A stretch of DNA of 64,000 nucleotides from Ehretia macrophylla (Eukaryota > Streptophyta > Magnoliopsida > Boraginales > Ehretiaceae): the NCBI GenBank assembly GCA_037974665.1, contig CM075766.1, positions 51,220,569-51,284,568 on the forward strand. Direction: 5' to 3'. The position numbers and the translations under genes were made by a program. Positions 5,585 through 62,131 of this stretch are shown in pieces (position 1 is the first letter of the stretch; every line of letters starts with the position of its first letter). The notes under the pieces are model-generated. The model was given only the letters and a program-made list of their open reading frames with translations, did no database searches and was not told the origin of the DNA.

Positions 5585-6285
5585 TGAGCAATTTGTTAAA
5601 TGTTATTTCCTTTTAAATAATATATTATTATGTAAAAGAGCTATCCAAATTCGATGAGTGAGACTTATCATGCATGAGTTTGACAACATGGCAAAGATAC
5701 ACAACAATCCAATCCAAGAACAATGTTATTCAATGCAGAAGATGATATCAAAATTAAAAATTGTGCAACTAAAAACATACATGAAATTAACTTTAAATTA
5801 TTTGACAAATATTAATCAAATTATTAAAAATCTTCGTGTGCAAGGTACAATGTTCATGATAAAGCGTTGAAGAGCCCAAAGTACAATGTACAAGGTTACT
5901 CAACATAAATATGAGACAATTCAATAAAAATGAAGTTACAATCAGTCATTAGAAAATAGGTTAATAGTTGATCCGGGCTAGGACGTGACATTGGAATTAA
6001 TAATTTTATGGTTGACGATTATCTGAAACTGAAATTATATACCACAAATTGTGAAGATAAAAAAAGAGTAAGCGAAGTTTCAAATAATATTACCCTAAAA
6101 TCTGTAAACTCCGGACGCGACAAACGGACAAAAGTTCACCGCAACACCCCTTATAATATGATAACCAGCAATTAAAAGATTTACATAGCAACAATACATT
6201 ATAACAAAAAAAAATATAAAATACAAACAATGCTGAAAATTAAAAAACAAATATCCAAAAAATAATACAAAAAATCAGAAAATAA
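5585..6285. other. CACTA internal spacer, no gene seen
   Basis: AT-rich sequence upstream of the transposase-associated domain fragment. It holds short open frames only, none resembling a known family. It may include the 5' untranslated region of the minus-strand transposase gene. Confidence 0.4.
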
Positions 6286-6289
6286 AATC

Positions 6290-7160
6290 ATATTAACTAA
6301 AATGTGATAAAAATAACACAAATTTTAAAAAAGAAGAAATTATAACAAATAAAAAAAATAGACAAAAAAAAAATGAAAAAAAATCATAAATAAAAAAAAT
6401 TAAATCCGAAAAAAATAAAATAAAAAAATAAACAAAAAATAAAAATAAAAAAGAAAATTCAATAAAAAAAAAACCAAAATGTGTGAAAAATAAAAAAACT
6501 TAATAAAAAAAATTATAACAAATTAAAAAATAGACAAAAAAAAATGAAAAAAAATCATAAATCAAAAACAAAATAAATTCGAAAATAAAAAAATAAAAAA
6601 AATAGAAAATAAAAAAAACAGAAAATTCAATAAAAAAAACCAAAATGTGTTAAAAATAAACAAATTAATAAAAAAAAGAAATTATAACAAATAAAAAAAA
6701 ATAGACAAAAAAAATGAAAAAAAATCATAAATAGGAAAAATTAAATCAGAAAAAAATAAAAAAAATAGAAAATTCAATAAAAAAAAACCAAAATGTGTTC
6801 AAAATAAAACAAATTAATAAAAAAAAGAAATTATAACAAATAAAAAAATGAAAAAAATCATAAATAAAAAAAATTAAATCTGAAAATAAAAAAATATAAA
6901 AAAATAGAAAATTCAATAAAAAAAACCAAAATTTGTTAAAAATAAAACAAATTAATAAAAAAAGAAATTATAACAAATAAAAATAAAAGACAAAAAAAAA
7001 CCTAAAAAAAAATTTAAAATCCGAAAATAAATTAAAATTCCGAAAAAAAAAATTCAGAAAATTAACTAAAACTAACCAAAATTAATAAAAATAACACAAA
7101 TTAAAAATAAAATTATAACAAACAAAAATAATAGACAAATATAAACGCAAAAAAAAATCG
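6290..7160. repeat. A-rich tandem satellite, unit about 140-175 bp, about six copies
   Basis: The plus strand is almost pure A with scattered T, G and C, yet a fixed order of words recurs: CCAAAATGTGTTAAAAATAA, AAGAAATTATAACAAATAAA, ATAGACAAAAAA, ATCATAAATAAAA, AAATCCGAAAA, AGAAAATTCAATAAAA. The CCAAAATGTG word sits near 6296, 6473, 6641, 6787, 6926 and 7075. So this is a diverged tandem array, not random low complexity. No coding potential. Confidence 0.7.
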
Positions 7161-7419
7161 TAAATAAAAAAAACAAAAAAAAAACAAAAAAACTGAAAAA
7201 ACAAAAAAAACCATCGGAAAATACCAAAAAAAAATTATAAACTAATTTAACATATTTAGGTTAGGTGCATTATTAACACAGATTCATAACAACACACAAA
7301 ATGTATCATATTTACATAGATGTACATGCATATACAAATGTGTATATAAATAAACTAAAAAAAATAAATTATTTATAAGGTTGGGGATAAGGTAATGTGT
7401 TGAGAGTATATAGCATGAT

Positions 7420-7563: not shown

Positions 7564-7771
7564 AAACATGTATAAAAACCAAAAAAATATACATTATTAC
7601 CTCTAAATCGTTGCAAGTGAAGGGTATATAGAAAGGTGGGAAGGTTAGGGGGAAAGGTGTGGGGCGTAAGGGGTGGGGTGGGGGGTGGGATTTTTCTCAA
7701 AGCTTAAAAAAAAAAAAAAAGTAACAGATGGCAGAACCTGTTAAATGAATTAAATTGGGCAACAGCCCGGC

Positions 7772-8400
7772 ATGAGCCAGGGCTATCGCCCAATTAAAGA
7801 GGCCCACATTTGTGGGACTCTTATTAGAGACGAGCATGCCCGTCTCCATTTAGAGAGGCCCACATTTGTGGGCCTCTTAAATGTGGGCCTCTTATTGGAG
7901 ACGAGCAGCTGCCCGTCTCCAAATGCCTGTCTCCATTTACTCTTATTGGAGACGGGCTTCGCCAAGATAGAGATGGGCATCAGCCCGTCTCCATTTAGAG
8001 AGGCCCACGTTTGTGGGCCTCTTATTGGAGACGGGCATCTACCCGTCTCTAAAATGGAGACGAGCTAATGCTCATCTCCATTTAAAGAGGCCCACATTTG
8101 TGGGCCTCTTATTGGAGACGGGCAACTGTGATGCCCATCTCCATTTACTCTTATTGGAGACGGGCAGATGCCCGTATCCAACATGGAGACGGGCATCAGA
8201 CCGTCTCCAACATAGAGACGGGCTTGATGCCAGTCTCCAACGTTGTGACGGGCATCAGGCCCGTCCCCACGATGGAGACGGGCTACCGTCGCCAACCCAC
8301 CTCCATTGGATACGGGAATAAGCCGTCTCCAATGTGGAGACTGGCAACCTGTCTTTAGCCCGTCTCCAATGAAAAAGACTGACATAGCTTCACAATTTGA
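7772..8400. repeat. Subterminal repeat cluster with four 22-bp inverted repeats
   Basis: The words GGAGACGGGC and its complement GCCCGTCTCC occur many times in both orientations. Between them lie four copies of an inverted repeat with 10-bp arms GAGGCCCACA / TGTGGGCCTC around TT, at 7799-7820 (one mismatch), 7855-7876 (perfect), 8000-8021 (one mismatch) and 8087-8108 (perfect). Each is followed by TTATTGGAGACGGGC or close to it. It is GC-rich in an otherwise AT-rich element. Such clusters are known in CACTA elements as transposase-binding subterminal repeats; that role here is inferred. Confidence 0.7.
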
Positions 8401-9533: not shown

Positions 9534-11003
9534 GCTTGTGTATGTATGTGTTAGGAAGAAATGTTAATGCATAGAAGATTGTAATTACTAGTTATGTTAT
9601 GTACTTATGATCAAATAGCAGTAAACTTGAGGTGAAATGATATAATAGTAGAAAGGTCAAGCTAAGCATGAAGTAAATATGTAGATTGTATACAGTGTGT
9701 AAAAATCAATACTAGTATGATACAGTACATTTTATATTTAGAAATCTCAACTATACTTGTTGTTTTGCAGAGTCGACTTAGCTCAAAATTGTATTTTAAG
9801 GAAAAAAAACTACATTACTTTTAACAAAAAGCTAAGGTAAGTTGGACATCCTTCTTGCACCTAGATCTCCTTTGGTTCTCTCCTTACTATTTCAATTTAA
9901 TGTCTCATATACCGAAATTTGTTAGCTCCGTTCCGATTCACTCATCTTTTGAAATCTTGTACTCAACTTCTAGTAAGGGACTGTGGCATTTAAGTACTGA
10001 TTGTGTTAATTGCTATGTGTTATCCTTAGAGCTGTGACACTCATTTGACGGGTAAAACTGCAGGATATTCTTAGCTTTGTACCCGTAGGTAAGGGACGCT
10101 TCACCCTACGGAGGCAGGGGCCGCAAGTGGCCATTTTGTAACCTCAACGGTGGGAGATGGTTCACCGTTTGAGGACGAGGCTTAGAAGCCTTCTGTTATG
10201 GTGTGAGGAATTTAGCTATCACTATCACGGCTCTAGGTGATATTTATGTGTTATGTGGTAATTACGATATTATACTTTGGAATATAATTAAGCTTATATG
10301 AGGCTTCAATATAGATGGAATTGTGGGATAATTGTTCAGGTTGTTATGATATCCAGTTGCGGAGCTCTGATATTAGTCTGATGTGTATGTTTTGTATTGA
10401 TCAAGTTATGATTCGGTTATAAACTTGCGTAAACTAACTATTCTCCGTTCGTCCTTCTTCCGAATACTCCTGTACCTTGACTCCCCATTGTATATTTGGT
10501 TTAACTTCAAGTTCTATATTGCATCATATCATTTGGACAACCCTCAGAGCCTGACTCTGGGTGTTCACCTTACTGAGTTTTTTTTGCTCATGTTATTTAT
10601 TTATCTGCTTTGCAGGGGAAGGTGAGTCCAGTTATCAAGAGGAGGACCAGTCTTAGAACCCCTACCTCAGTCGGCTTGTGGTATGTTGGATTTCTTTTGT
10701 AGGACAAATCCAGCTAAATTTTGGATGCGTCTATGTTATTGTAGATTATTAGTAAAAACTTGGTAAACCTTAGTAATGTATTTTTGTATGGTGGAGAAGA
10801 TGAAAATCTTAGTAAAATATTATGTTTGGTTCAGACTATGTAGATACTTCGACAATGATGTTATATAGACGCTCTGATATGAATTTAACAGGTTCTGTCA
10901 CTCTTTATATTAGTGCCTGATTAGCTTTGCAGGTTTGAAATGAATTGAGTAAGTCCCTAGCGAGTCGCGCCTCGGGTTTAGGGTCTAAGTTCGGGGCGTG
11001 ACA
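9534..11003 (+). repeat. Gypsy left LTR, 3' part only
   Basis: This 1470-bp stretch matches 19333-20803 of the right LTR nearly base for base and ends TGACA at 11003. The first about 880 bp of the LTR lie beyond the CACTA insertion, off-window. Short open frames inside are conserved between both LTR copies only because the copies are recent. Confidence 0.93.
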
Positions 11004-18455: not shown

Positions 18456-20803
18456 TGTAACACCCAACCTTATTTTAGGCCACATGTGCAAGTTTATTTT
18501 CATTTTATCATTTTATAATCTTTGAGGCTAGTGTGTAAGTAAACAAAAAAAAAAAAAACTAAGGTAAGTAGTTGCTGGGATTCAAACATGTGCACTCTTT
18601 TCCATATGCATGAGTCTTAACCATCTAGGCTGATGCTAGTATGTTAACAAAACTAGGAATTAATAGAATTTATATTTGTAAAGCAATCTGATAAGCTTAA
18701 GTTTAGCAAACCAAGAAAGTTTCTCACACATTCTCTTTTAAATTCCTTACCTGATAACCCTAATTCCAATTAAGACCCAGCAGCGATTTTAGTGAAATAA
18801 ATCTTCAAATTTGAGTCAACTAAAGCCTTGTAATCATGAGAATCCAAGCGGGTGAGTTGGATTTAGTTTAGTTATAATTCTTTATATGTTTTGTATATAT
18901 ATATATTGTATATATGAGTATGGATGAATTATTATGTACTGACCTTGAGGAAGTTGAATAAATCACCTGTTGAATAGCAAAGAAACTCGAAAGCTATAGG
19001 GTTTAGAGGTGATAATAGGCAGGAGGTGGTTAGAGTAATATTAAACTATGATGAATCTATGGAATAATATGGAGATTTACATGTTTAATTAGTTTGTGAA
19101 ATATATGTGTGTAGTATGCTACTGTCGTGTGTGTGTGTGTCTATTTATGTGGTTACTGTTTATGGAATAATTGAGTTTCCTACCTATTGAATAGCAAATA
19201 AACATAGGAGCTAAAGGAAATTGTAATGATAATGGTAAATAGGTATAATTGTAGAAGATGGTATAAGCTTTGATGGAGTTTATGGATATGTTTGACCATG
19301 AATTTGTGGCTGACCGTGAATATGTTGGGCTTGCTTGTGTATGTATGTGTTAGGAAGAAACGTTATTGCATAGAAGATTGTAATTACTAGTTATGTTATG
19401 TACTTATGATCAAATGGCAGTAAACTTGAGGTGAAATGATATAATAGTAGAAAGGTCAAGCAAAGCATGAAGTAAATATGTAGATTGTATACAGTGTGTA
19501 AAAATCAATACTAGTATGATACATGTACATTTTATATTTAGAAATCTTAACTATACTTGTTGTTTTGCAGAGTCGACTTAGCTCAAAATTGTATTTTAAG
19601 GAAAAAAAACTACATTACTTTTAACAAAAAGCTAAGGTAAGTTGGACATTCTTCTTGCACCTAGATCCCCTTTGGTTCTCTCCTTACTGTTTCAATTTAA
19701 TGTCTCATATACCGAAATTTGTTAACTCCATTCCGATTCACTCATCTTTTGAAATCTTGTACTCAACTTCTAGTGAGGGACTGTGGCATTTAAGTACTGA
19801 TTGTGTTAATTGCTATGTGTTATCCTTAGAGTTGTGACACCCATTCGACGGGTAAAACTGCCTCATATTCTTAGCTTTGTATCCGTAGGTAAGGGACGCT
19901 TCACCCTACGGAGGCGGGGGCCATAGGTGGCCATTTTGTAACCTCAGTGGTGGGAGATAGTTCACCGTTTGAGGACGAGGCTTAGAAGCCTTCTATTATG
20001 GTGTGGGGAATTTAGCTATCACTATCACGGCTCTAGGCGATATTTATGTGTTATGTGGTAATTACGATATTATACTTTGGAATATAATTAAGTTTATATG
20101 AGGCTTCAATATAGATGGAATTGTGGGATAACTGTTCAAGTTGTTATGATATCCGATTGCGTAGCTCTGATATTAGTTTGATGTGTATGTTTTGTATTGA
20201 TCAAGTTATGATTCGGTTATAAACTTGCGTAAACTAACTATTCTCCATTCGTCCCTCTTTCGAATACTCCTGTACCTTGACTCCCCATTGCACATTTGGT
20301 TTAACTTCAAGTTCTATATTGCTTCATATCATTTGGATAACCCTCAGAACCTGACTCCGGGTGTTCACCTTACTGAGCTTTTTTTGCTCATGTCATTTAT
20401 TTATCTGCTTCACAGGAGAAGGTGAGTCCAGTTATCATGAAGAGGACCAGTCTTAGAACCCCTACCTCAGTCGGTTTGTGGTATGTTGGATTTCTTTTGT
20501 AGGACAAATCCAGCTAAATTTTGGATGCGTCTATGTTATTGTAGATTATTAGTAAAAACTTGGTAAACCTTAGTAATGTATTTTTGTATGGTGGAGAAGA
20601 TGAAAATCTTAGTAAAATATTATGTTTGGTTCAGACTATGTAGATACTTCGACAATGATGTTATATAGACGCTCTGATGTGAATTTAACAGGTTCTGTCA
20701 CTCTTTATATTGGTGCCTGATTAGCTTTGCAGGTTTGAAATGAATTGAATAAGTCCCTAGCGAGTCGCGCCTCGGGTTTAGGGTCTAAGTTCGGGTCGTG
20801 ACA
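18456..20803 (+). repeat. Gypsy right LTR (complete, 2348 bp)
   Basis: Starts TGTAACACCC right after a purine tract (GAAGGGGGGAAGGG, about 18442-18455, the plus-strand primer site) and ends GTGACA. The bases after 20803 are coding sequence of the broken UGT gene. A tRNA-like stretch on the minus strand at about 18538-18645 (see separate entry) lies near the LTR start. Confidence 0.93.
18538..18645 (-). repeat. tRNA-like (SINE-type) fragment within the LTR
   Basis: On the minus strand an A-box-like CCTAGATGGTTAAGACTC is followed about 35 bases later by a B-box-like GTTTGAATCCCAGC. Spacing and order are those of an RNA polymerase III internal promoter. The acceptor stem is not closed, so it is not a tRNA gene. 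It may be an old SINE fragment carried by the LTR family. Confidence 0.35.
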
Positions 20804-20851
20804 ATAGGCAAGCCAAATTGTTCAGCAACTTTAATTGCGAAGCTCATGACC

Positions 20852-21193
20852 TGTAACGATGATGCCACAATCACATGCTATTGGCAAAGAAGGCATAACA
20901 AACTCGGGGCGCAAAAGGAGTGATCGCACCAAGCACACACCTTTACACCTAAAGAATGTTGTGTAACTGCTTAGGAGAGCACATCCTCAACATATCATAA
21001 AAGCAGCTCATTAAATGAAAAGAAGTAAAGAATCATTTTGCTAAAAGTCTTATTTTGTTTTCTTCTTTACTTTGGAGAGTCGCTTCTCGAATAGCCTTAT
21101 TTTCTTTCAATTTCAGTTGTAATTCCTCCTCACATTGCAGCTGAGTAAATAAAATCACCATCTTCAATTGCCTCCATATTTGATATCGCTTCA
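20852..21193 (+). repeat. Left LTR of the chimeric element
   Basis: 342 bp, begins TGTAACGATG and ends GATATCGCTTCA. Immediately followed by TTGGTGCTTTCATTG, a primer-binding-site-like sequence at 21194-21208 of the kind seen after the LTR in plant gypsy elements. Confidence 0.88.
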
Positions 21194-21217
21194 TTGGTGC
21201 TTTCATTGCTCTCCGCC

Positions 21218-21634
21218 ATGGCCGACGGCTCGAAGCTCACACACGTTGAATTACTCAAACAACTATCTGCTCTTTCTGCTTACAAAACCCAGCTACTTCA
21301 ACAACTTGCTTCTCAAGAACACCACCTTGATAACTCTCCCTCAAGCACTGAACCACCTCAGCCTCAAATCTCTCTAACCACCACCACTCTATCGCCACCA
21401 TCTACCTCTAGATCTACAATTGGTATTCCACCAAATCCCCAAAGTTTTGATACTTTTGGATGCTTGCCTCATGATCTTATTGAGCTTACCGACATACCTA
21501 AGTAGAAGCCGGTGAATGTTGTTAGCAAAGTAACGGAAACGTTAGTTGGATATCAACCAACACATAATTATTCTACACACATGAACTAGCCAACTTCATC
21601 CCAAAACCCAGATTCCATTAGCAAACTGTCACCT
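21218..21634 (+). pseudogene. Leader frame with captured Toc64/OM64 fragment, two in-frame stops
   Basis: An ATG in good context (CGCCATGGCC, 21218) opens a frame MADGSKLTHVELLKQLSALS of unknown origin, proline/serine-rich after residue 45. From about 21427 the DNA matches the OM64 gene found at 56116-62131: PNPQSFDTFGCL corresponds to the end of its exon 4 and start of exon 5, HDLIELTDIPK and KPVNVVSKVTETLVGYQP to the end of exon 5 and start of exon 6. Both introns are absent, and about 40 codons in the middle of exon 5 are missing. TAG at 21503-21505 and a later TAG near 21587 interrupt the frame, which otherwise stays in phase with the next open frame. Confidence 0.75.
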
Positions 21635-22870
21635 ATGCCACCAGATTCGACAATATCCACCGCGTCTCTACCACCTTCAACTCCTTCAACGGAAACTTCT
21701 TCAAACATGTCACAAACTCCTTCTACACTATCGTCGGCAACGAAAACACTTACGGCACTTCCTGGTTTCGTCAATGTAGGAGCCTCTCTAGTTCCATATC
21801 TCACATCGGTATGCTCTCCACTAACCACTGACATGGGTACTCAAGCTTTTCCACAAGCTCTACACTCTCCACAAGCTCCGCTTTCACGTTCATTTCGGTA
21901 TGGTGACAAGTCTCTTGGTGAGGTTAATGCAATTCAAAACCATGGTAAGGAGATGTCATATGTCAATTATCTTGCTGTTAATGCTATTTGGAACTGCCTT
22001 TGTGAATTTACTAAGCCTCCATGTGTGGTTGTGAAGCATACAAATCCTTGTGGTGTAGTTTCACATGATGATGTCATTGAAGCATATAGACTAGCTGTGA
22101 CAGTAGATTCAGTGAGTTTGTTTGGTGATATAGTAGCATTCAACATGGCGTCTTTTTCAGTTGATATGTATGGCAAGTTTGAAGAAATGAAGTATGCGAG
22201 GAAGGTGTTTTCTAAAATGATTGAGAAAAGTTCGGTGTTGCGGACTGCACTTATGGGTGGGTATGTCAAGTGTGGAGGTTTTAATGTTGAGAACGAGTTG
22301 TTTGATGAGTGGGCAAATCTCCCTTGGTGGATTCCGTGGCGGGTTTATTTGACAGTGAGACAAAAGGGTAGGATTAGGGTTTCACGAGCTACATTTACGA
22401 CGCTTGAAGAGGATGTAGTAATTGATGGGAGAAAAATCAATAAAACATCATTTGATAGTAATGAGGATTTGTACAATACATTGAGAGTAGTAAAAGTTGA
22501 GTTAAAGTTGATTTGGCAGCGAAAGCAGCAGATAAATAGTATCCATCATATCTATGTACTGCTTGTTAATATATACGCTACTGCTTCAATGTGGCACAAG
22601 GTGGCCAAAGTGCCAACTATGATGGAGAAGATAGGTTTGTTGTTTTCTCCGGCTTTGTCTGCAACGACTAATGATGGATTGTTTCGACTTGAACTCAAAA
22701 CGACCTACCCGCATCTGAACCTTAAGGACAAGGTTCTTGTTCGAGGGGAGGGTAATATAACGATGACGCCACAATCACATGCTATTGGCAAAGAAGGCAT
22801 AACAAACTCGGGGCACAAAAGGAGTGATCGCACCAAGCACACACCTTCACACCTAAAGAATATTGTGTAA
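21635..22870 (+). CDS. 411-codon chimeric open frame (ATIC/PurH-like, PPR-like, gypsy pol end)
   Basis: Open from ATG 21635 to TAA 22870, ending inside the right LTR. Residues about 1-85 are Ser/Thr/Pro-rich and unrecognised. Residues about 88-170 resemble the formyltransferase/IMP-cyclohydrolase ATIC (HGKEMSYVNYLAVNAIWNCL; CVVVKHTNPCGVVSHDDVIE; AYRLAVTVDSVSLFGDIVAF), with short internal gaps against the family. Residues about 171-225 resemble PPR repeats (KYARKVFSKMIEKSSVLRTA; GGYVKCGG), and about 300-335 a PPR E-type motif (YVLLVNIYATASMWHKVAKV). Residues about 345-375 resemble the end of a gypsy polyprotein. None of these pieces is a complete domain, so any product would be novel; whether it is expressed is unknown. 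Confidence 0.55.
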   Translation: MPPDSTISTASLPPSTPSTETSSNMSQTPSTLSSATKTLTALPGFVNVGASLVPYLTSVCSPLTTDMGTQAFPQALHSPQAPLSRSFRYGDKSLGEVNAIQNHGKEMSYVNYLAVNAIWNCLCEFTKPPCVVVKHTNPCGVVSHDDVIEAYRLAVTVDSVSLFGDIVAFNMASFSVDMYGKFEEMKYARKVFSKMIEKSSVLRTALMGGYVKCGGFNVENELFDEWANLPWWIPWRVYLTVRQKGRIRVSRATFTTLEEDVVIDGRKINKTSFDSNEDLYNTLRVVKVELKLIWQRKQQINSIHHIYVLLVNIYATASMWHKVAKVPTMMEKIGLLFSPALSATTNDGLFRLELKTTYPHLNLKDKVLVRGEGNITMTPQSHAIGKEGITNSGHKRSDRTKHTPSHLKNIV

Positions 22871-23107
22871 CTGCTTGGGAGAGCACATCCTCAACATATT
22901 ATAAAAGCAGCTCATTAGATAAGAAGAAGTAGAGAATCATTTTGCTAAAAGTCTTATTTTTCTTTCTTCTTTACTTTGGAGAGTGGCTTCTCGAATAGCC
23001 TTATTTTCTTTCAATTTTAGTTGTAATTCCTCCTCACATTGCAGCTAATTAAAGCTGAGTAAATAAAATCACCATCTTCAATTTCCTCTATATTTGATAT
23101 CGCTTCA
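22756..23107 (+). repeat. Right LTR of the chimeric element
   Basis: 352 bp; matches 20852-21193 with about 18 base differences and a 10-bp extra block (ATTAAAGCTG, near 23045-23058). The first bases read TATAACG where the left LTR has TGTAACG, so its terminal TG has mutated. Confidence 0.88.
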
Positions 23108-23566
23108 TGACCCCATCAGATACTATACATGTCACAGGTGGAATATTTGGGACTGAGTTGTTGAGTTTGTGAAGCTTGCTGCAAAGAGGAGCTAAGCGAT
23201 TCTTGGATGTGGATTCACACAGAGAAGGAACATCTTGTGTGGCATCAACATCAGATGGTAGAAGGCCATCTGAGATTGTTTCAAATCGAAAATCCAGCAA
23301 GCCATCAAGAACGTTAGGGCCTTTAGACTTGAGCAAGCGTTTGTGGTTAAACTCTGTGTTGATGAAGGTTATGTGAAAGCCTCGATCGTGAAGAAGTTTA
23401 GCTAGTTTAAGCATTGGGGTAATGTGACCTTGAGCTGGATATGGTATGCACACAGCATGAGGCTTGTCATTAGTGGAACCCATCTTCCTCTGTGTCTGTG
23501 TGTGAGTGTATGTTTGTATGAATCTTTCAAAATAATTATGTTCATGAAAACCAAGGGATATCGCAA

Positions 23567-23576
23567 CCTTTTATAG
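23567..23576 (-). promoter_or_regulatory. TATA box of the broken UGT gene
   Basis: On the minus strand CTATAAAAGG lies about 85 bases before the UGT start codon, the normal spacing for a plant TATA box plus a short leader. The promoter thus appears intact although the gene is split. Confidence 0.6.
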
Positions 23577-36175: not shown

Positions 36176-39100
36176 ATGAACGTTATCATATGCAAGGATT
36201 GCCGGCGGCAATCCTTGGCATCACAGCATGCTCAGGCCGTTCGCTGCCATGGATGCCGAAGAATTATATCAAGTGGTTTGCTGAGTACTAAAAATGATCA
36301 GGCTAGCCCAGTGAATGTCGTCAAGATCAGTAGAAGGGAAAGGTTGAAAGACTTCTTAAAGATGCATTCAGGCACTATACGTCCATCTGGTGCTTCCCCA
36401 AGTGTTAATAATCAACGTTTTTCGATCACTTCAATGCCTCCACCGAGAGGGAAACGAGCATTTCTTTGTGGAGTGACTTACAAGGGGCAGAAAGTTAAGG
36501 TTAAGGGAGCCTTGCAAGATGTGAAAAGCATGAGAAATTTACTAGTCGACCGGTTTAATTTCCCATCTAGCTCTCTTCTGATTCTTGCAGGTAAAACTTA
36601 TATGTATGATCTAATAACAACATCTTATCTTCCATGGAAAATGTATATAGAACTTGAAAAGTTGTTGCAGGAAGGAAATGGACACTCTTGGATTTGGACC
36701 GTCCGGTCTCATGTATTTTCGGAACACTCTTGATTCCGGATGACCGGCTGTCTAGACTAAGCTTACATGGGATGTGGGCTTTACGTACAAGGGTCCACCT
36801 TATTGTGGGGTTGTATTAGTATTTGATAATGTTTTTTAGATATTAGTAAATGCTTATGTATCATGCCTATGGTTTCCAAATTTGTCTTTGTCATTTATTA
36901 ATCAGAGCATGCATATGTAGTAGAACTGAGATTAGATATAACAGTTTGAGATGTGGAATGATTGTGGAGCTGTTAAAGGGTAGAATGTACGTAGCGTGTT
37001 TCCTGGTGGAATTAATGACTACAAATGAAAATTCTTGGGTTAGTCTAGATTGTTTTTTACATGGTTAGCGAGACCGATTCTCACACTAATATAATATATA
37101 AGAGACTAATGTTAGTTCGAACTAACTAAATAGTTTTCCGAGTATGAAGATATTTACTGAAGAAATTTAACACCCTGCAGAAGAGGAGACTTATAAGCTC
37201 CCAACAAAGAGCAATGTCCAGGAGGCCTTTCGGTGGTTGACATCAGACTTGCAATCAGGAGACTCATTGGTGTTCTACTTCTCAGGTCATGGCAAGCGAC
37301 AGCGTGATTTTAATAGAGATGAGATGGATGGATTTGATGAAGCAATTTGCCCTGTTGATTTTGCGACTAAGGGCATGATATTGGATAATGAAATCAATCA
37401 AACCATTGTTAGACCGCTCAAGGAGGGAATCATACTTCACGCTATCATTGATTCTTGTCACAGTGGAACTATGCTTGATCTACCATATGTGTATAATAAA
37501 GATAAGTATGTTTATCTCTTCTTTAGCAATGATGTGGCGTCAATTCTTGTAGTCTGGGATTTGCATTTGTTTACTGGAGATTGGTTCAATCAATTTCTGT
37601 TTAGAATGATAAAAAAACAGATTGATAACAAATTGACAGGGCCGAGGCACAGACAGCTCATGTGGGGCCCAGTCTCCAAAGGAGGCGGTACAAATAAGTT
37701 AAATATATTCAATCCGTAAAAATTGACAGTAAGATATTACATACTAATATACAACATATATAAATGCGTCCTAAATTACTAAAAGTCTCCCAATTAAACG
37801 CTCGGCTCCTAATAATTTGTCAATCAATGACAAAATGTTGGCTTGTCAGCCAGTATAATTTGTAACTTAAAATCACCTTTAATTTGTAACTTAGAATTAT
37901 CAAATCTGTTACAATTTGGCAATAGAAGAAAATTGTAATTTTCTTTTTATATCTTGAATGGAAGAGAGAGGATAATCAACTATCGACTATTGGCCTTTAC
38001 TGGATTCAACAGGAAAAAATGGGATGACAATCGGCCTCCATCAGGTGCTCACAAAGGTACAAGTGGAGGACGTGTTATCTGCTTTAGTGCTTGTGAGGAT
38101 TATCAACTAGCTGCAGATACCTCAGTGAGTAGTCTTCCCTGATTCTTTTGTTCAATGGTTTAATTGAGTCTGGAGATAATAAATCGATAAATAAACTTCT
38201 CTCGAACCGCTTAATCTGTTAAATTAAGTGATCAATTAACATTTCATCTTCTTCCATTCTTCGTTTTCTCTCTGTTATCTAGCTCCAGGAGGAGATTGAG
38301 GTGTCCTACATTTCTTACATCTCGCCATCTACAGACGATATTCATTGTTGGAATTTATAATCTTTCTACATGAAAAAATCATAAACTTTGGACTACTATT
38401 CCAAGCACTAATTGATTTTAGGATGAAATCTCATAATTCTTAATATGGTATCAGAGTTAGGCCATTAATTTAATCATATTCATCTATGTGTTTCTTATTT
38501 GTCTGTCTGTTTCGCTCTTGATTTGGTCAGGATGTCTTCCTTAATTCTTATTTTTGCTGTACTTGCAGGCTTTTTCCTCGGGAAAAAATATGATTGGTGC
38601 CATGACACACACATTTATAAAAGCAGTGGAGTCGAATCAAAAAGTTACATATAGGAGCATACTCCATCATATGCATGAGGCCATCGAGGAGGCTAATAAA
38701 CCAGATTGTCCTTGTAGTCATATTTTAAGAGGATTCAACCACAAGATATTACAGGTAATAATCCATCTGCTTTGCTCAAATCATACTTGAAAAATAGACA
38801 TCTTATACAATATATGATAATTGTATAATTACATTCGAAATCTGCAGAATCCTCAATTGTCATCTCGCCTCATGTAAGGAGTGATTTAACATTTTAGATG
38901 AGGTGGTAATTAAATTAAATATATGAGTAATTTGAAAATCACCAGCATTGTTCGAACTTGAAGTAGTTCGGACTAATAATTTGTAAATAAATCGTGAATA
39001 CGATCCAAGCAATAAATGCCTTAGGGTTCCAATACTCTTAAATAATATGCCTCAATTTCAATACCGTGAATTTTTACTACCCTCTGGCCTGTGGAGTATT

Positions 39101-42100
39101 GGTATATGTCAATGCCCACCTTATAATAAGTATCGTTAATTATATGGTAGCATAAATTAACGATTCCGACTTATACGTCGATGAGATCAAAAGAGACTGC
39201 GATGGCTACAAGAAATAAGTTCGGGAATTTAGAGTTACCTAAGATGACGTCGGGATTATGCAATGCTAAAGTCAGCAAATTTGACTAAAGGAAGCTTCCT
39301 ATAAGTTGACTTGGATGCTAGCCACCCATGTGGTTAATTGAAGTCACCCATGTGATAAATATGGGTGGTCAATACTTTGAACATGGTTGGTAAAGCCAAC
39401 CAAGATGGAAATGTTTGATAGGAAAGTCTCATATGGTGGGCTAGCTTAATTTTATAGTCTCCTATGGCGGGCTAGCTAAATTCTATAAATAGTAATGCAT
39501 TAAATCATCAAATTCATCCACAACACAACTCCAAACACAATCCTAAGTTAGTCTTTCTTTCTTGTATTCTTCTTGTAAATCCAGAAACTATTGAAACTCT
39601 AATCTTGAGAACGCACGGTGGGACAATTATGTTGTAAGAATTATATTGAATTGTTATAATGAGTAGTGTTGTCTTTCTACTTGATTGTTGTTAAGACGTT
39701 TCTGAAAAATTGGTTATATTTTTACATGGTATCAAGAGCTTAAGGGGCTCTTAACAATAATTTTGTCTAGTAAAGCTCAACAACTATGACTACTCAAGGT
39801 GTTAGTTCTTCTTCTACCAGTTCTAGTTCCGGTTTAGTACCGACAATTCGTATCCGTCCCCCTACCTTCACAGAAGGAAAGCTTGATGGCACGAACTATT
39901 TTTTGTAGAAGTTCAAAATCACTACAGTTCTGGACTCCTACGAACTCCTTGATACAGTGTTAGGCACAGATGCAGAACCAGTTGCAGTTCGTGCTGAAGA
40001 TGACACAAAAAAGGTCACACCTCTAGATCCTCAGCTTGTCAAAGAATGGAGGAGACGAAATGCTGATGCACTTTGTGCAATTGTAACAAGTGTTCAGGAT
40101 TCCGTCCTTACTCTAATTCAACACAGAACCAAGGCAACTGAAGCTTGGAACATACCGAGAAATCAGTATGAAACAAGGAATCAGACTCGTATTCAGAACT
40201 TGGAGAATCAGTTAGCTGCTGAGAGATTAAGTAAAGATGAAGCAGCTGAGTCATTTATTAGTCGGATGAAAAACCTACGTGATCAAATGGCTGCAGTTGG
40301 TATTGCCAAATCAACTGAGGAACTAGCTTGAAGGTGCATTAGAGTGTTGCCTCCAAAATTTGACGGTCTTGTGACAGTACTCAATACACAAGTTTGCATT
40401 CCTCCTTTGACATTTGAAGAATTCACTGCCATGTTGATGGAGGAAGAGATGAGGCTAAAAAGCGGAGAAAATCAACTTGACTCTGCCTTTGTAGCAAAAG
40501 CGAGGAGTAGCCAAGAAGAAATGAAAGAAGAAGACATTCTCTGGATCGTGCTACTACTGCAATAAGAAAGGCCATACTGTCAAAGACTATAGGAAACGAA
40601 TCTATGACGAGAACAACAGAACTCTAAAGCTAAATTGGAGAAATAAAGAATCTGTCAATACGGCTGAAACAAAAGTGCATCTGTTTACTGTAATAAATGT
40701 ATCGGAGGAAACGTGTACTAGCGCACATGTACATCAAACAAGTGCATGGGTGTTAGATAGTGGAGCTTCCCGACACATGATCAGCAAGAAAGAGTTATAT
40801 GACTCAATAAAACCTCTACAAGAACCAATGAATGTTGTCGTTAGGAATAATGCTAGGTGTTCCGTTGAGGACACTGGAACCATCTTGCTTGTGTCTAAAG
40901 ATGAAGGAAGCAAGAAGCTGTCCAACGTACTTTTTGTACCCCAGATCACCAGAAATTTGCTATTTGTAGCTGCTATTACAGATAATGATCTAAAAGTGCG
41001 GTTCAAGAAGAAGGAAGCTTTGATTCTTGACAGAAATCAAAATATCATAAGTAAAGGTATTCGCAAAAATAACCTTTACAAAATCAGCTCTCTTTTTGCT
41101 ATCGTGGATGCCAAAACAAGTCAACTTTGGCATGAAAGGTTCGGGCACATTTCTTATCCTGTGTTAAAGGAAATGTAAAAGAAGAAGATGGTGGCCGACT
41201 TGCCTTCAATTGAAGAAGTTGAAGGACCATGTGAAGCTTGTATATTGGGCAAGCAACATAGACAATCATTTCCCAAAGAGAGTCATAACCGATCAAAAGC
41301 TCCTCTAGAATTGGTACATGCTAACCTCTACGGAAAAATGACTACCCCGGCGTTGGGAGGATCTTCTTACTTTAAGTTGTTAGTCAACGATTAAAGTAGG
41401 AAGATGTGGGTGTACTTCCTTGGGGACAAGGCTGATGCTCTTGAAAAGTTTAAAGTGTGGCACAAACTTGTTACAAATGAGAACACAACTCAGTTGAAGA
41501 AACTTCGTACCGATCGTGGGGGGGAATTCTGTTCTACAGAGTTCACCAACTACTGTAACAATCTTGGGATTAAACGCCAATTGACTGCTCCTTACACACT
41601 ACAACAAAATGGAGTTGTGGAACGAATAAATCGAACAATTGTAGAAATGGCTTGATGCATGTTGAAAGGTGCTGGCCTACCTGATACATTTTGGGTTGAA
41701 GCAGTCAACACAGCGGCGTACATCCTCAATCGGTGCTCAACCAGGGCACTTAACGATAAGACTCCTAATGAGGCTTATTATGGTACGAAACCTTCTGTGT
41801 CTCATTTAAGAAAATTTGGGTGTGAGTGTTTTGTACACGTCCCAAATGAAAATAGAAAGAAATGGGATGACAAGAGCAAAAATGGCATTTTCTTGGGATA
41901 TAGTGAAGAGTTTAAAGCATACAGACTATATGATGTAGAGGCCAAGAAAGTGATCATAAGCCGAGATGTGGTGTTTAATGAGCGACCACACTCAATGGAG
42001 GATAGCGGTCCTGCCATTTCGTCATCAACTGATGAAGTAATCCACCAAGTGCCTGAACAACGACCGTTGAACAATGAAGAAGTCTCTAATGAAGACCAAC

Positions 42101-56115: not shown

Positions 56116-59100
56116 TCAACTGATCAGTTTTCTGAGTCTCTTTTCAGCCTGACTGGCCACCTTGTTCTGTGGCTCCAGAACAAGTGCATGGTTGAAATCT
56201 GCAAAAAATACAAGATAAAATATTACAACAAAAGGAAGACGAAACATGATACAGATATATATGGAGAGAGTAAGGGAGGGAGATTTGGGAAAAAGAAAAT
56301 GAAAAGATGAGGGTTATATGTACAGTGCCCACTTAACGAAAACCCTCTTGTTTTCTCACCTTGAAGAGCCTCTCTATAGGAAAGGAGTGACTCCCTCGCC
56401 GTCCCTCGTCGCAAATATGCCTTCACATTCTGCCAAAAAGAAGGAAATATGTCTTATAAAATAATCATAATATAGCGTGGTGCATTCTCCATGACATTAA
56501 TTCATTCCTTTTCAACATCAAAAGCCTAAACAGTAACTTATTATATCTTTCTTAATGAAAGTACTTATTACTACAGTTCATGCCTACCCAATTTCAAGAC
56601 GAGCAAACTACGTAAATCATCAATGCCAGAAAGCTAAAGGAAGGAGGCAATTAGCACAATTGTCTAATTACTTGCCCCTTGATGGCGGACTTTAAGTCAG
56701 TCCAGGCTCACTGTAGAAAGGGGTTTGCTGTCTGCATATGAGTACTGTCTGAAGTTAGCGGGGTATGAGAGTATCATTCACGATATTATTAACTTCTCCT
56801 ACCTCACACCTTTTGAATTCAATCACATTGCTGGTACTAATCTTCAACACCAGTACAATAAACACTTCAAAACTGAACTTTATGACCAAAATTATGGAGC
56901 AAAGAAGAGAAAAAACAAAGATTTAATTAATGAATCTAAACTGCAAAAAGAAGGATGACGAGAAACTCTGCTCACCTTCTTATCAAGAGATATCGCCTTA
57001 GTGCAGTCATCTTCAGCTTGTTGAAAGCTGCAAGAATGATATGAATAAATAGAACAACTCTTGGAAGAGATGAACTAAGGAAAAGAATGATGGACAATAA
57101 AAAATGCAAAGCATAGGAGATATCAAACCATCCTAATTCCAAGTAAGCAGCAGCACGGTTGCTATAGTAAGTAGCATTCTTCTCATTTAATCTAATTGCT
57201 TGAGTGTAGTAGCTAACAGCCTTATTCCACTGCCGTTTCTTGTATGCAGCATTCCCCTGAAATGTAACACATCAGAACCTCAAACAAGTAGAACAGAGGA
57301 GAGAGGAATTCAGAACACACTATGCAGTTTTAGTGTACCAGAAATATTGGACAATCCATTACCAGAAGATGGAGAATATGTGCAATAACCAGTCTCACAT
57401 ACAAATAGTCATTTTATTTTTTTCCTGAATCATTCAAATAAAGTTGTAATAATTAACTCCAACATATTTACAAAGAGTATAGAGAACAAAACCTTTTCTT
57501 TTAGCAGATCAGATGCGTCCACGTTACCATTGGTATCTGGCAATGGTGAGGACCTGGAGACAATGCTAACTTCTTCTTGAAGAGATGAATACATATCTAA
57601 GACAGTATCGAGTAGAAATTTATCAGTTGTATGAGACGCAATGAATGATGCAGAGATTGGGTAGTTATCGTGTTTTCCAAGTGGAACAGAAACCTGAAAA
57701 CACATAAAAGATATAACCGTGAGAAAAAAGACAGCGAAGACAACCCAATTGACTTATTAAAAGGAGAAAGAAGGGGGCTAGAAGAAATAAATCCTCCATA
57801 ACCGTGAGAACTGACTTATTTAAAGAAGAAAGAAGGGAGATGGGGGAAAAGGTGAAGGGAAGGTACTGAAGCCTTACGCTAAGGATTTACCTGACAGCAG
57901 CCAGACATGCTAGCAATGCTCAACAAAGCAAATGTTCGATCATGAAACTCGGCAGAGAGGCTTTTCTTGCTCTTCAATGTAAGTGGAGGGTCTGCAACTG
58001 TGGGAATTACTAGAATCCCGTCATCCTTCAAAACAACAAAGAACAGTTATGTCACACTTTGTCTTACTAAATAGAGTTTCATCATCTGAATGTCTACAGC
58101 AGAATAAGGATTCTGGCTGCACATTATATGTGATGCTTATGACTGCACATGACAACAAAGAACAGCCATGTCTCGCTTTTTGTTATTAATAGCTGAAGTT
58201 TTGAGTCTTGCATTTTAAACCCCAAATACTCCAAAAATTCATCAACATCATACAATATATTGCCAGAAGTTGAAGGTACCTTACCGGGGCCCCTAAAAGA
58301 TCTACAAAGAAAACCAAAGTAGAATAGAGTACAGACTCTCCTCCACTTTCCAAATTCCATCTTCCACCCACAGATACAGAGAAAGACACACAAACACACA
58401 CACAAAGAGAGATAGAGAGATGGATAGATGCACTTAGCACCATAAATAGTTAGACTTACCTTCAACAAACTTTGAAGAGCGTGTCGCATTTCTGTCCTGA
58501 CTTTGTAAAGTGTCTTGATGTTGTCCGGTGTAGTGGACATTGCTGCATTAACATGGTCAGAGACATCAGGGCTAAACCTGCATTTAACTGATTTAATCCA
58601 TTCTTCATGGTTTGTTTTGAACTCATATCTGAAAAAGCAATATGCACATCAGTCAGAATGACTTTCAAGCTTCAGCTTTATTTTAAAACTAGAGATAAAC
58701 AAAAAGACAAGAAAAGAAAAGAAAATAACAACAGCAGCAACAAATAATGATAGACTTGTTATATTTCAACCCGACATTACAGAACAATAGGGGCAAAACA
58801 AAGAAAACTAGAAGCCAAATCAAAAGATTTGACCAAAACAAAAACAATATGTGGTCATCCTATAAGCTAGGAACCAATTTCAACATCACAGAGAAGCACA
58901 AATGAATTTACCATAAAAACATGTGATCTTCTGATGAAGGTGCAACCAATTCCCCAGGTCGACAATCCACTTAATAGACAACACAAACAGTGATCTACTT
59001 CACTATGAAAACTCCATCACTACTTATCTGGCTTCTTGAAATATTGCAGTGAACTTGCACTCATTAAGCAGTGTCCTCTATTCATCAACGTTTGAAAATA

Positions 59101-62100
59101 CATATAGAAGGGGTAACGATAAGAACCGTGGGCACATATGTCAAATATGATTCTTGGATCACTTCAGAAGTATATCAACTATTACACATGCCATCATCCA
59201 TATAATGAAACTTGTTTGCAGCAATCCAATAGATAAAAGAAGCTTTAGCCAGCAATTCATATTTAGAAGCACTTCCTAGCATTTGTCATATAGTGAACTA
59301 CAAAACTCCAGCTTTTTATGCAAGTAAATGATATGAATTTTATACTCCTATTAAGGTGAACGACTAGCATACACACATTCATTCTACAAAAAACCTCACC
59401 ATTAAACAACACAGTTACAGAAACACCTCATGTTGAGTTATATACCACATCAAATTTCAGCAAATGTAGCAACCTTTCATTAGCATATATCATCTAATCA
59501 CATAGTGAAATAAAGAAACGCTATGCAAGACAGTTTTCCAAGTACCTCTGCAGTAGAAACATTACAGAAGAAAGAGCCTTCAATGTGGATATTCCATTCT
59601 GCTGATTTGTTGATTCTTTGAGAAATCCTTTGAGGCTGGGTACGTTGGAAGCAATATACTGCACAAAATTCATATGTTTCGGTGGCTGATCTGCACAAGG
59701 TAGATAGAAAACAAAAAGGAGAATATGTTAACATGATGGTTACCGCTTTCCCCAAAAACTAGAATCACATTAGGAAAATAGTGTGATATACAATAAAAAA
59801 CAAAATGACATCAATTGAACGGATAGAAAAGAAGGAACCACAATAGATTCATGAAATGTAACATAAGAAGCTGAAACTTACACCCAACTAACTTTCCTGC
59901 CACTCTGCTAACAACATTCACCGTCTTCTGCTTAGGTACTTTGATAAGCTCAAAAAGATCATCAGCTATAATAAAGCGTCTTGTCCGCTTAGGTTCTAAT
60001 GGTTTTAATTGAAGTAGAACATGTCCAACTCGATGCAAGATAGATGGATCACGAGCCAAGCATCCTGATATAGAATATTATCATTGCAGGCAAATAATTA
60101 GTGACTACAGAAACTCGTACCCCAACTGAAACCACAAAAGGTGATAGAAAAGGATTACACAACAAAATGATAGTACTGAATTTTGGCAAGTAGACTCAAG
60201 GTGTCATTTTTACAGAAGCAAGCAATTACAATTTTGCAGATCCTAAGAGCAAGAAAATATCACCTTCTTTACTTACCAATAGTATCTAAACTTTGGGAAT
60301 TTGGCAGAACACCAATTGTAGATATTATTCCATGAGATGGTCTAAATCCAAGAACACCAGAAAAGGTCGCTGGTACTCTGATACAACCAAATGTGTCAGT
60401 ACCTGCATTGTCATCAATCTTTATAAACATACATAACAAAAGAAATGAAATAACCCAAAATACAAGAAAACAATGAACTACTATATAATTACAGATATAT
60501 CGTTACAATGCTGTTTAGGTAGAAGAAGAGAGTGAGAATACAACATATTGAAACAGATATTTTCTTCATGATACAACCAAGTACACATAAAACACCATGT
60601 AATAGACGGAGATAATATAGAAAAATCAACTTCCAACTTTGGAAGTTTTAAAGATGATGAGATTTATAAATCCAACTGGTAAGGTAGTGATAGAGGTAAA
60701 TAGGGGCAAGAAATTAGAAGACATTTCTACATCATTCAAATAAATTTAACAGAAAAAGATAATGATGTAGTTGCAATAACTGTTTGAGCCTTGCAACATG
60801 AATCAATTCCATTTCAAGCATGAAAATCATACCAAGAGCAAAATCAACAAGCTCAGCCGCAACAGCAACAGCAGAACCACTAGACGATCCTCCAGGAATA
60901 TGAGACGGCACTTTTGGGTTAGTCGGAGTTCCATAATATGGATTCTCCCCTGTAATCCTGCAATCATCTCCCAGAAAAGCGGAAATAAAATAAATAACCA
61001 AAGAATATCATCTCAGCATTTTCCATGGAACCCCAAATGGAAAAGCAGAAAAGATGAAAAACGAAAGACAAAAAAGGAAAAACCCCTCCACACACGCAAA
61101 TACATATGATAGTTCGTGAAGGCAGAGACAAGTGTAACATGTAAGCAATGTATCAGGGGATCAGAATGCAATGAGAGTCGTACAATTAGCAATAGTCTCT
61201 TCACAAAAATCTAATTTTCTCACCACAACAAAAAAAATTAGCACATTACGCATCAGAAACATTCGTGTAATGCAGTTATTAGTAACACATACATACATAT
61301 AATTGTGTGTGTGTGTGTGTGTGTGTGTATGTAGACAGATAGATTGATAGATATATGTATACCCAAGTCCAAGTTGATCCATGACAGTCTTGCCAACGCA
61401 AGTAGAGCCATTCTTGAGCAAAGCCGTCACCACCACCGCCGTCTTTGTCGCAGCCTCGTGTGTATTCTTCCACTCTGGACTCCCATACCCCGTCACATGG
61501 TCCTTCACATCAATACTACAAAAACCACAACCAAAAAATAATAAAATTATTTGAAAAAGAAAAATCCTTGTAGCCCAACAATATATTAACTTTACGGGTA
61601 ACGTCATGTCCATATTATTTCCGTAAAGAATATGTAGTCAATTTACAATGATTTGTGTTTTCGATCATAGTGGATCTTAAGCATTTTGGGCCAGATGACT
61701 AGCTCAACGTGTTAACAGGCTAATAGTAGCTGAACAGCTCAACTCAACGTGTTAAAAGACTAATAGTTGTGCCAGCTGAACAGCTCAATGTGTTAGCAGA
61801 CTAATAGTTATACCAGTCATTACAACACACGCGCATATACATACATATACCAAATATATGTGTATATATATATATAAAGGTTGACTGACTTGTCTTTGAT
61901 GGCAAATGTGAGGCCGGTGAGGGGCAACGGAGCAGCGGGCGGAGGAGGCTGAGGAAACGGAAGAAGCTCGAAGCGTTCGACGAAAGCTCCGAAGTCTTCT
62001 TTGACGGAGTTCTTGGCGATCATTCGTCGCCGGTGAGTCTCGGCCAGGATTATAACTCCGGCGATGCCGAGGCCGATCACGAGCCATACTTTGGGGTTGT

Positions 62101-62131
62101 TGGATATATTCAGCTTCGAAAGTGTTGGCAT
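56116..62131 (-). CDS. OM64: Outer envelope protein 64, mitochondrial (OM64/Toc64 family)
   Basis: Receptor at the organelle surface that docks Hsp70/Hsp90-bound precursor proteins. Thirteen exons: 62131-61890, 61515-61363, 60957-60833, 60402-60277, 60064-59882, 59690-59546, 58628-58460, 58025-57891, 57693-57493, 57256-57129, 57027-56976, 56429-56360, 56198-56116; 603 residues, matching the family. The first ATG is 62131; the in-frame codon at 62146 is GTG. A membrane anchor (VWLVIGLGIAGVIILAE) lies at residues 15-31, an amidase-like domain at about 70-480 (GGSSSGSAVAV), and three TPR units at about 485-603 (YYSNRAAAYLELG; AYLRRGTARES), the chaperone clamp. The amidase nucleophile position reads DTFGCIRVPA, Cys instead of Ser, so the domain is probably inactive, as known for the family. 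No damage seen. Mitochondrial rather than plastid form is inferred from the N-terminus. Confidence 0.93.

Follow-up and report, generated by a model that had tools for sequence, protein, structure and literature searches.

Results

An LTR element within a UGT85-like exon

The window analyzed here is a 64,000-nucleotide stretch of Ehretia macrophylla contig CM075766.1. Its positions 20852-23107 are occupied by a non-autonomous LTR retrotransposon of 2256 bp, at the very coordinates that a first-pass annotation had assigned to a 2.26-kb element. The LTR pair and the perfect 5-bp target duplication reported there were likewise verified, the LTRs being 92.6% identical with one 10-bp gap and TGACC standing on each side. 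The outer parts of the element and the gene that it interrupts are as follows:

20847..20851, no strand: target-site duplication, left copy TGACC (sequence read directly)
20852..21193, plus strand: 5' LTR, TG...CA, 342 bp (repeat comparison)
21194..21208, plus strand: likely primer-binding site TTGGTGCTTTCATTG, after the 5' LTR
22743-22752, plus strand: purine-rich tract GAGGGGAGGG, within the pol-end part
22756..23107, plus strand: 3' LTR, 352 bp, begins TA not TG, ends CA (repeat comparison)
23108..23112, no strand: target-site duplication, right copy TGACC (sequence read directly)
20803..23570, minus strand: UGT85-like gene (identified by eye), split by the element into an N-terminal part, 23108-23570, and the codons that follow, 20851-20803

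The 3' LTR, which opens with TA in the window copy, opens with TG in L009 and L020, two further copies of the family described below. The sequence TTGGTGCTTTCATTG lies downstream of the LTR in nine of the ten copies or kin displayed, including the gag-pol-bearing kin, and was not found in the tenth, L025. When the flanks are joined without the element, a continuous reading frame results in the UGT85-like exon, for which Pfam gave a weak glycosyltransferase match (0.11). The K2P distance between the LTRs of the window copy is 0.052. Plant sequences accumulate 7e-9 to 1.3e-8 substitutions per site and year, which would place the insertion at about 2-4 million years ago.

Other repeats are present in the window. 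A large element with LTR stretches at 9534-11003 and 19333-20803 (96% identical) ends about 48 bp from the 20852-23107 insertion; an LTR-like repeat pair, 91-92% identical and 4.7 kb apart, lies at 39096-39728 and 43815-44447; and tandem or degenerate local repeats occupy 732-1775, 6174-7234, and 7758-8238, the last with GAGACGGGCAT-type units.

An interior composed of host-gene pieces

The interior of the window copy holds pieces of six identified host genes and two other pieces, with its modules in the following order:

21218..21411, plus strand: gag N-terminal leader (beginning MADGSKLTHVELLKQLSAL) and Ser/Pro-rich linker; ATG at 21218
21412..21559, plus strand: captured piece of OM64 (Toc64 family), exons 4-5-6 without the two introns; 90-nt in-frame deletion
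21585..21896, plus strand: Ser/Pro-rich segment, origin unsettled (genome matches)
21899..22148, plus strand: captured ATIC/PurH piece; one intron gone, in-frame 33-nt and 18-nt deletions
22143..22306, plus strand: piece captured from a PPR gene (86% to C3:11900683); 6-nt match at the join with ATIC
22315..22383, plus strand: piece X1, 82-87% to ten other loci
22405..22504, plus strand: captured CSB/CHR8-like piece, gene named by eye; 86% to C19:47081331
22504..22631, plus strand: E-motif end captured from a PPR-DYW gene, C8:79812107
22635..22703, plus strand: captured aspartic proteinase piece, N-terminal region; C18:47704175 and C1:87373032 match equally well (84%)
22704..22755, plus strand: end of pol (ending LNLKDKVLVRGEGN; module comparison)

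The first ~40 codons correspond to the start of gag, with 43% identity (E 2e-9) to the gag of L023, a relative considered below. Of the earlier assertion that the element carries no retroviral genes except the end of pol, the presence of the pol end stood, and this gag start has to be added to it. The proposed origin of the interior from at least three host gene families (Toc64/OM64, ATIC/PurH, and PPR) was borne out, with donors exceeding the three named; rather than a single gene or a known polyprotein matching throughout, we found several unrelated donors.

The ATIC module was recovered by Pfam with an E-value of 4.4e-24, and a homology search with the long ORF gave 916 matches, the 120 listed being of the PurH type. 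Searches with two stretches of the read-through frame, residues 360-445 and residues 1-222, had no match at E<=1. The PPR piece and the PPR E-motif in the long ORF fall under the Pfam cut-offs (0.032 and 2e-4, respectively), yet they are clear in comparisons with the donor genes. Placing the other modules required the host genome. PDB matches to TIMP-2 and Cry toxins, and a Pfam FANC_SAP match on the leader, were judged to be due to chance.

Part of the Ser/Pro-rich segment, 21764-21872, shows 79% identity to sequence that continues at other loci as an HSP70 fragment. Such sequence is present in middling copy number, at L044, L045, and further loci, as a Ser/Pro-rich linker leading into the HSP70 fragment (Pfam 1.2e-17 and 1.7e-14 in the two loci read), and perhaps constitutes another transcript-capturing family. 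Ten loci, L040 among them and five of them on C14, contain sequence matching X1. L040, the X1-bearing locus that was read, has a Pfam match to DUF7135; a single frame there spans a PPR-like part (by eye), X1, and DUF7135, making it another possible chimera.

Donor genes and the loss of their introns

We searched the assembly of 1.58 Gb in 20 contigs for donors. That of the OM64 piece is in the window itself:

58496..62131, minus strand: OM64 host gene, donor of the OM64 piece (first seven exons examined; the gene continues)

By Pfam, this gene codes for an amidase part (2.4e-12) and TPRs (4.6e-8), which we take to be the Toc64/OM64 layout. It is 83-88% identical to the OM64 pieces and is the sole non-element match listed for the OM64 piece (12 of 12 candidates scored). 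Both exon joins of the piece fall inside ungapped alignments to the spliced gene, and its missing 90 nt lay between the near repeats CTCGTGATC and CTGATGATC. In the ATIC piece, AAG is joined to GAG, between which the gene at C19:5982000-5991000 (L024) has an intron of ~470 bp; this donor was taken from the best 40 of 224 candidates, and further ATIC copies may exist. The aspartic proteinase gene is on C18 (L041, L043); a locus on C1 matches just as well. A sister copy of the element, L018, crosses four introns of the C18 gene, which are GT-AG there, with no bases gained or lost. One of these joins was located by a string match in a script and the other three, being substituted or not string-matched, by eye; a fifth gap in L018 is unreadable, with ~380 bp of other sequence at that point. 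All seven readable introns are therefore absent, two of OM64 and one of ATIC in the window copy and four of the proteinase in L018. These joins demonstrate that spliced mRNA was the source of the captured pieces for the three donors OM64, ATIC, and the proteinase.

For the PPR piece, the locus at C3:11900683 (86%) is the best non-element match among 40 scored, and for the PPR-DYW piece the match at C8:79812107 is 91% identical over 78 bp. Pfam supported the PPR-DYW, aspartyl protease, and PPR assignments on the donor loci; on the CSB-like donor it found nothing convincing, the name reflecting our reading of the donor protein by eye. The identified donors are spread over four contigs, C3, C8, C18, and C19. 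With regard to possible siRNA cross-talk with the donors, the longest exact matches measure 27-31 nt in ATIC, 39 nt in one copy of PPR, and 10-24 nt in the others.

The modules are short and their joins are at small matches, as DNA repair also yields; hence, capture at the DNA level might be considered, whereby repair patches, nested insertions, or gene conversion assembled the interior in the manner of Pack-type elements and the introns were lost afterwards. Against this, the seven readable introns of three donors are all missing at GT-AG sites, and every tested module of the window copy is in the sense orientation. The splice joins already contradict DNA-level capture, which we regard as highly improbable. 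Pack-MULEs are marked by terminal inverted repeats and a 9-bp duplication; neither is present in the window element, which has direct LTRs and a 5-bp duplication instead.

A family of insertions sharing the capture set

A genome query with the element gave at least 47 matches (best 40 of 224 candidates scored). About eight independent insertions bear the module set of the window copy, namely the window copy itself, those on C17, C9, and C2, three on C1, and a duplicated cluster on C16. As the same interior with the same joins recurs, whole or in part, in about eight insertions, chance is excluded. Sister insertions have their own 5-bp duplications, TAGTG, GTATC, and CTCTC, as well as TTTTC in two of the three C16 pairs. 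Target duplications were thus observed in L009, L010, L018, the C16 cluster, and also L021 of the second set described below; that of L019 is imperfect, and none was seen in the flanks of L012 or L020. The LTR K2P ranges from 0.014 to 0.079 across the nine copies measured. Of the autonomous parent and the sister copies that the first-pass annotation had proposed to look for, the sister copies are present, as are kin with gag-pol, and the window LTRs belong to an element family.

A module matrix of 20 targets revealed that L018 (on C2) has every module, though interrupted by other sequence, and in addition an extended CSB piece, a larger part of the proteinase, and a piece of an alpha-mannosidase (GH38, 2e-5 in L012, slightly below the Pfam cut-off). 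The central block of L018 is absent from the window copy, the C17 copy, and two C16 copies; L010 and L011 are without another part, L012 is without CSB, and L019 is without part of the leader and OM64. As L018 has the full set and the window copy is without the central block, the latter is most simply interpreted as a deletion derivative of a fuller element. In the C16 copies L015-L017 (2.24-2.30 Mb), other sequence of ~10.9 and 5.5 kb breaks the element at its position 1278-1285; these interruptions show an 8-bp overlap and were duplicated together with the locus.

The long open stretch resembling host proteins might, by itself, suggest an ordinary host gene or retrogene lying between two unrelated repeats. 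Given the LTR pair, the likely primer-binding site, the target duplication, the clean empty-site frame, and the approximately eight dispersed copies, this reading is already refuted, and we assign it practically no credence.

The window insertion is ~35 kb from its OM64 donor gene. This closeness is probably a coincidence, because other copies elsewhere bear the same module. It might nevertheless be cited for read-through transduction, in which element RNA extending into or from neighboring genes is spliced and trimmed with no switching between RNAs: RNA so made would also be spliced, and an excerpted review (PMC13317346) terms the captures of maize Bs1 transductions. Several observations are at odds with this scenario: the donors are on at least four contigs, the captured blocks lie between the gag start and the pol tail rather than at the 3' terminus, the OM64, ATIC, and CSB-like pieces come from the interior of their genes, and the full module set is found in L018 on another contig. 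We thus consider read-through transduction to be unlikely.

A second capture set and gag-pol-bearing kin

In L020, L021, and L022, we found the same LTRs, leader, and pol tail (88-94%) around different cargo, comprising threonine synthase, a gag remnant, PPR, and GRAS (2.1e-20). The threonine synthase was identified on the kindred locus L027 (PDB match 1.2e-17) and the PPR on the matching part of another, L042 (PDB match 1.1e-23), Pfam alone having missed the PPR; the gag remnant was named by its short likeness to the L023 gag (E 0.02-0.3 over the stretch). L025 has a PPR-GRAS block that is 94-95% identical under a different LTR, which demonstrates, on comparison of the loci, that captured blocks are common to different LTR types. 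Some modules may accordingly be second-hand, considering that the Ser/Pro segment resembles the other family of middling copy number and that PPR-GRAS is shared with L025. L027 (C19:45070000-45077500) combines threonine synthase and PPR with another PPR piece and an AAA piece. The LTRs of this chimeric relative are 98.6% identical, so that its insertion is recent.

L023 codes for gag (8.6e-13), reverse transcriptase (1.6e-23), RNase H, an integrase zinc domain (5.6e-16), and a Tf2-1-like SH3, its coding sequence being broken by stops. Its likeness to the family is partial, with 89-90% in the 3' half of the LTR and 73% in the leader. L042 is intermediate, its single frame of 621 codons running from a gag start through a gag remnant and PPR to integrase. 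The gag-pol of L023 and the integrase-bearing intermediate L042 tie the family to Ty3/gypsy; through these kin, it can be assigned to that lineage.

Discussion

Origin of the element

The first-pass annotation had described an LTR element made of captured, spliced transcripts of several host genes, and the absent introns, the donors on four contigs, the sister copies, and the gag-pol kin uphold this description. We consider it very likely that the element is a non-autonomous Ty3/gypsy element whose gag-pol body was replaced by pieces of host mRNAs through several events, presumably by template switching. The parts needed in cis are kept, namely the LTRs, the likely primer-binding site, the gag start, and the polypurine tract. 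Under this proposal, host mRNAs would be packaged beside element RNA in the particles of a Ty3/gypsy helper, and reverse transcriptase would repeatedly switch templates at short matches onto these co-packaged mRNAs. A gag-pol relative would supply proteins in trans, enabling the element to spread, while further switching or slippage would delete modules differently between copies. Repeated template switching, also part of the original description, fits the one donor-to-donor join read, that of ATIC and PPR on the 6-nt match ACGTGG, which is found in both donors, and the three internal deletions in OM64 and ATIC between short near repeats; we infer it from such traces rather than from observation.

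Comparison with known systems

The suggestion that the element is undescribed was too strong, as the general kind is known and gene capture by LTR elements is common. Bs1 of maize is a published LTR retroelement with parts of three host genes in a chimeric gene (excerpts of PMC13317346), and PMC11963269 cites it, in its excerpted text, as a transduction. Like Bs1, the window element is an LTR element with several host-gene parts in one frame, here with two stops. Unlike Bs1, it has six identified host genes and two other pieces, and its family displays two capture sets under one LTR family, donors located in the same genome, and serial loss of modules between copies. In the excerpted maize survey (PMC2774510), gene fragments are recorded for 425 intact LTR elements, none of which, under the survey's conditions, combines several standard nuclear genes; these elements contain host fragments as does the window family, but of one gene each rather than many. 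LTR elements of rice and sorghum likewise contain host fragments, and 672 and 1343 captured genes, respectively, are given in the excerpt of PMC3726574. NLR genes of pepper and potato were retroduplicated from spliced mRNA by LTR elements (PMC5664825, in part), which in pepper are mostly non-autonomous; the capture is spliced as here, but mainly concerns one gene family rather than many unrelated genes. Two hallmarks of retroduplication, the absence of parental introns (all seven readable) and location between the LTRs of one insertion, are found in our family.

Pack-MULEs and gene-carrying Helitrons also have host gene pieces within mobile elements, some producing chimeric transcripts (PMC13317346, excerpt); they are DNA elements, whereas the window family reflects capture at the RNA level without introns. 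The Veju and BARE-2 chimeras, attributed to abnormal template switching in the same excerpt, joined retroelement or unknown sequence, whereas host exons are joined here. Among open-access titles and the beginnings of abstracts, a range mostly outside subscription papers, we found no family with as many donors. We therefore see the present case as an unusual variant with respect to its donor number, two capture sets under one LTR, and gag-frame joins. One small element joins six identified host genes, most of whose donors are readable in the same genome, and its copies record gains and losses of modules, so that the course of RNA-level exon shuffling and the rules that it follows can be read. 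The family thus illustrates a way in which LTR elements can shuffle exons of many genes, with capture having happened more than once.

A shared reading frame

In the window copy, the gag frame runs from the ATG at 21218 to the end of pol with two TAG stops. All 12 motifs tested are in this frame, and so are all eight modules tested after the leader, in sense. To the earlier statement that much of the interior is in one open frame, the two stops have to be added. If the joins were independent, which is uncertain, the chance of eight in-frame joins would be (1/3)^8, about 1.5e-4.

Over the parts compared, seven of the ten copies have in-frame stops, and L010 (427 codons compared), L012 (367), and L016 (304) have none; L012 has stops further on. 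At 39 of 487 compared sites, every copy in the comparison (three or more) departs from the donor; at this rate, 3.5 stops would be expected per 427 codons with P(0)=0.03, a figure tempered by divergence that may in part be donor-side. As a sign of frame keeping, the stop counts carry little weight. Six of the eight distinct indel events among copies are multiples of three, counting those inside or touching the frame and excluding gaps at the edges and one of 1 nt upstream of the ATG; the deletions relative to donors are of 90, 33, and 18 nt. This pattern resembles frame keeping, but some of the frame-multiple indels fall in the Ser/Pro repeat. The second PPR piece, which is outside this count, has a net loss of 17 nt, its first ~40 nt being out of frame.

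This long shared frame, the copies stop-free over the codons compared, and the preponderance of frame-multiple indels could be taken to mean that the chimera is a new host gene or element protein selected for its sequence, as reported for Bs1. However, dN/dS between copies scatters around 1 (0.44-1.61 in 45 pairs), 18 of 70 near-invariant ATIC columns in 60 plant sequences are changed (~four of these at alignment edges), modules vary between copies, and stops occur in frame in most of them, including L012 beyond the part compared. Selection on the protein sequence is hence quite improbable in our assessment.

For a captured-transcript element, these observations taken together suggest that the frame, but not the sequence, may be favored during multiplication; the case for frame maintenance is suggestive rather than proven. 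Joins in the gag frame would be favored if RNAs with a long open frame survive or package better, a step with weaker support than the others. More tentatively, and with considerable doubt, we posit that the lineage operates as a permanent exon shuffler equipped with a frame filter, in which mainly gag-frame captures of spliced mRNA pieces propagate. If this were true, RNA translated from the gag start would escape decay or be packaged whatever the protein sequence, and new multi-gene frames would accumulate at dispersed sites over time. Such a filter is a testable idea for chimeric frames that are open without sequence conservation.

Frame keeping varies among the relatives. L042 and L025 keep one frame at the motifs tested, and L027 does so except for its threonine synthase, which is out of frame; L012 is in frame up to the PPR piece and then shifts, and the frame of L020 is broken.
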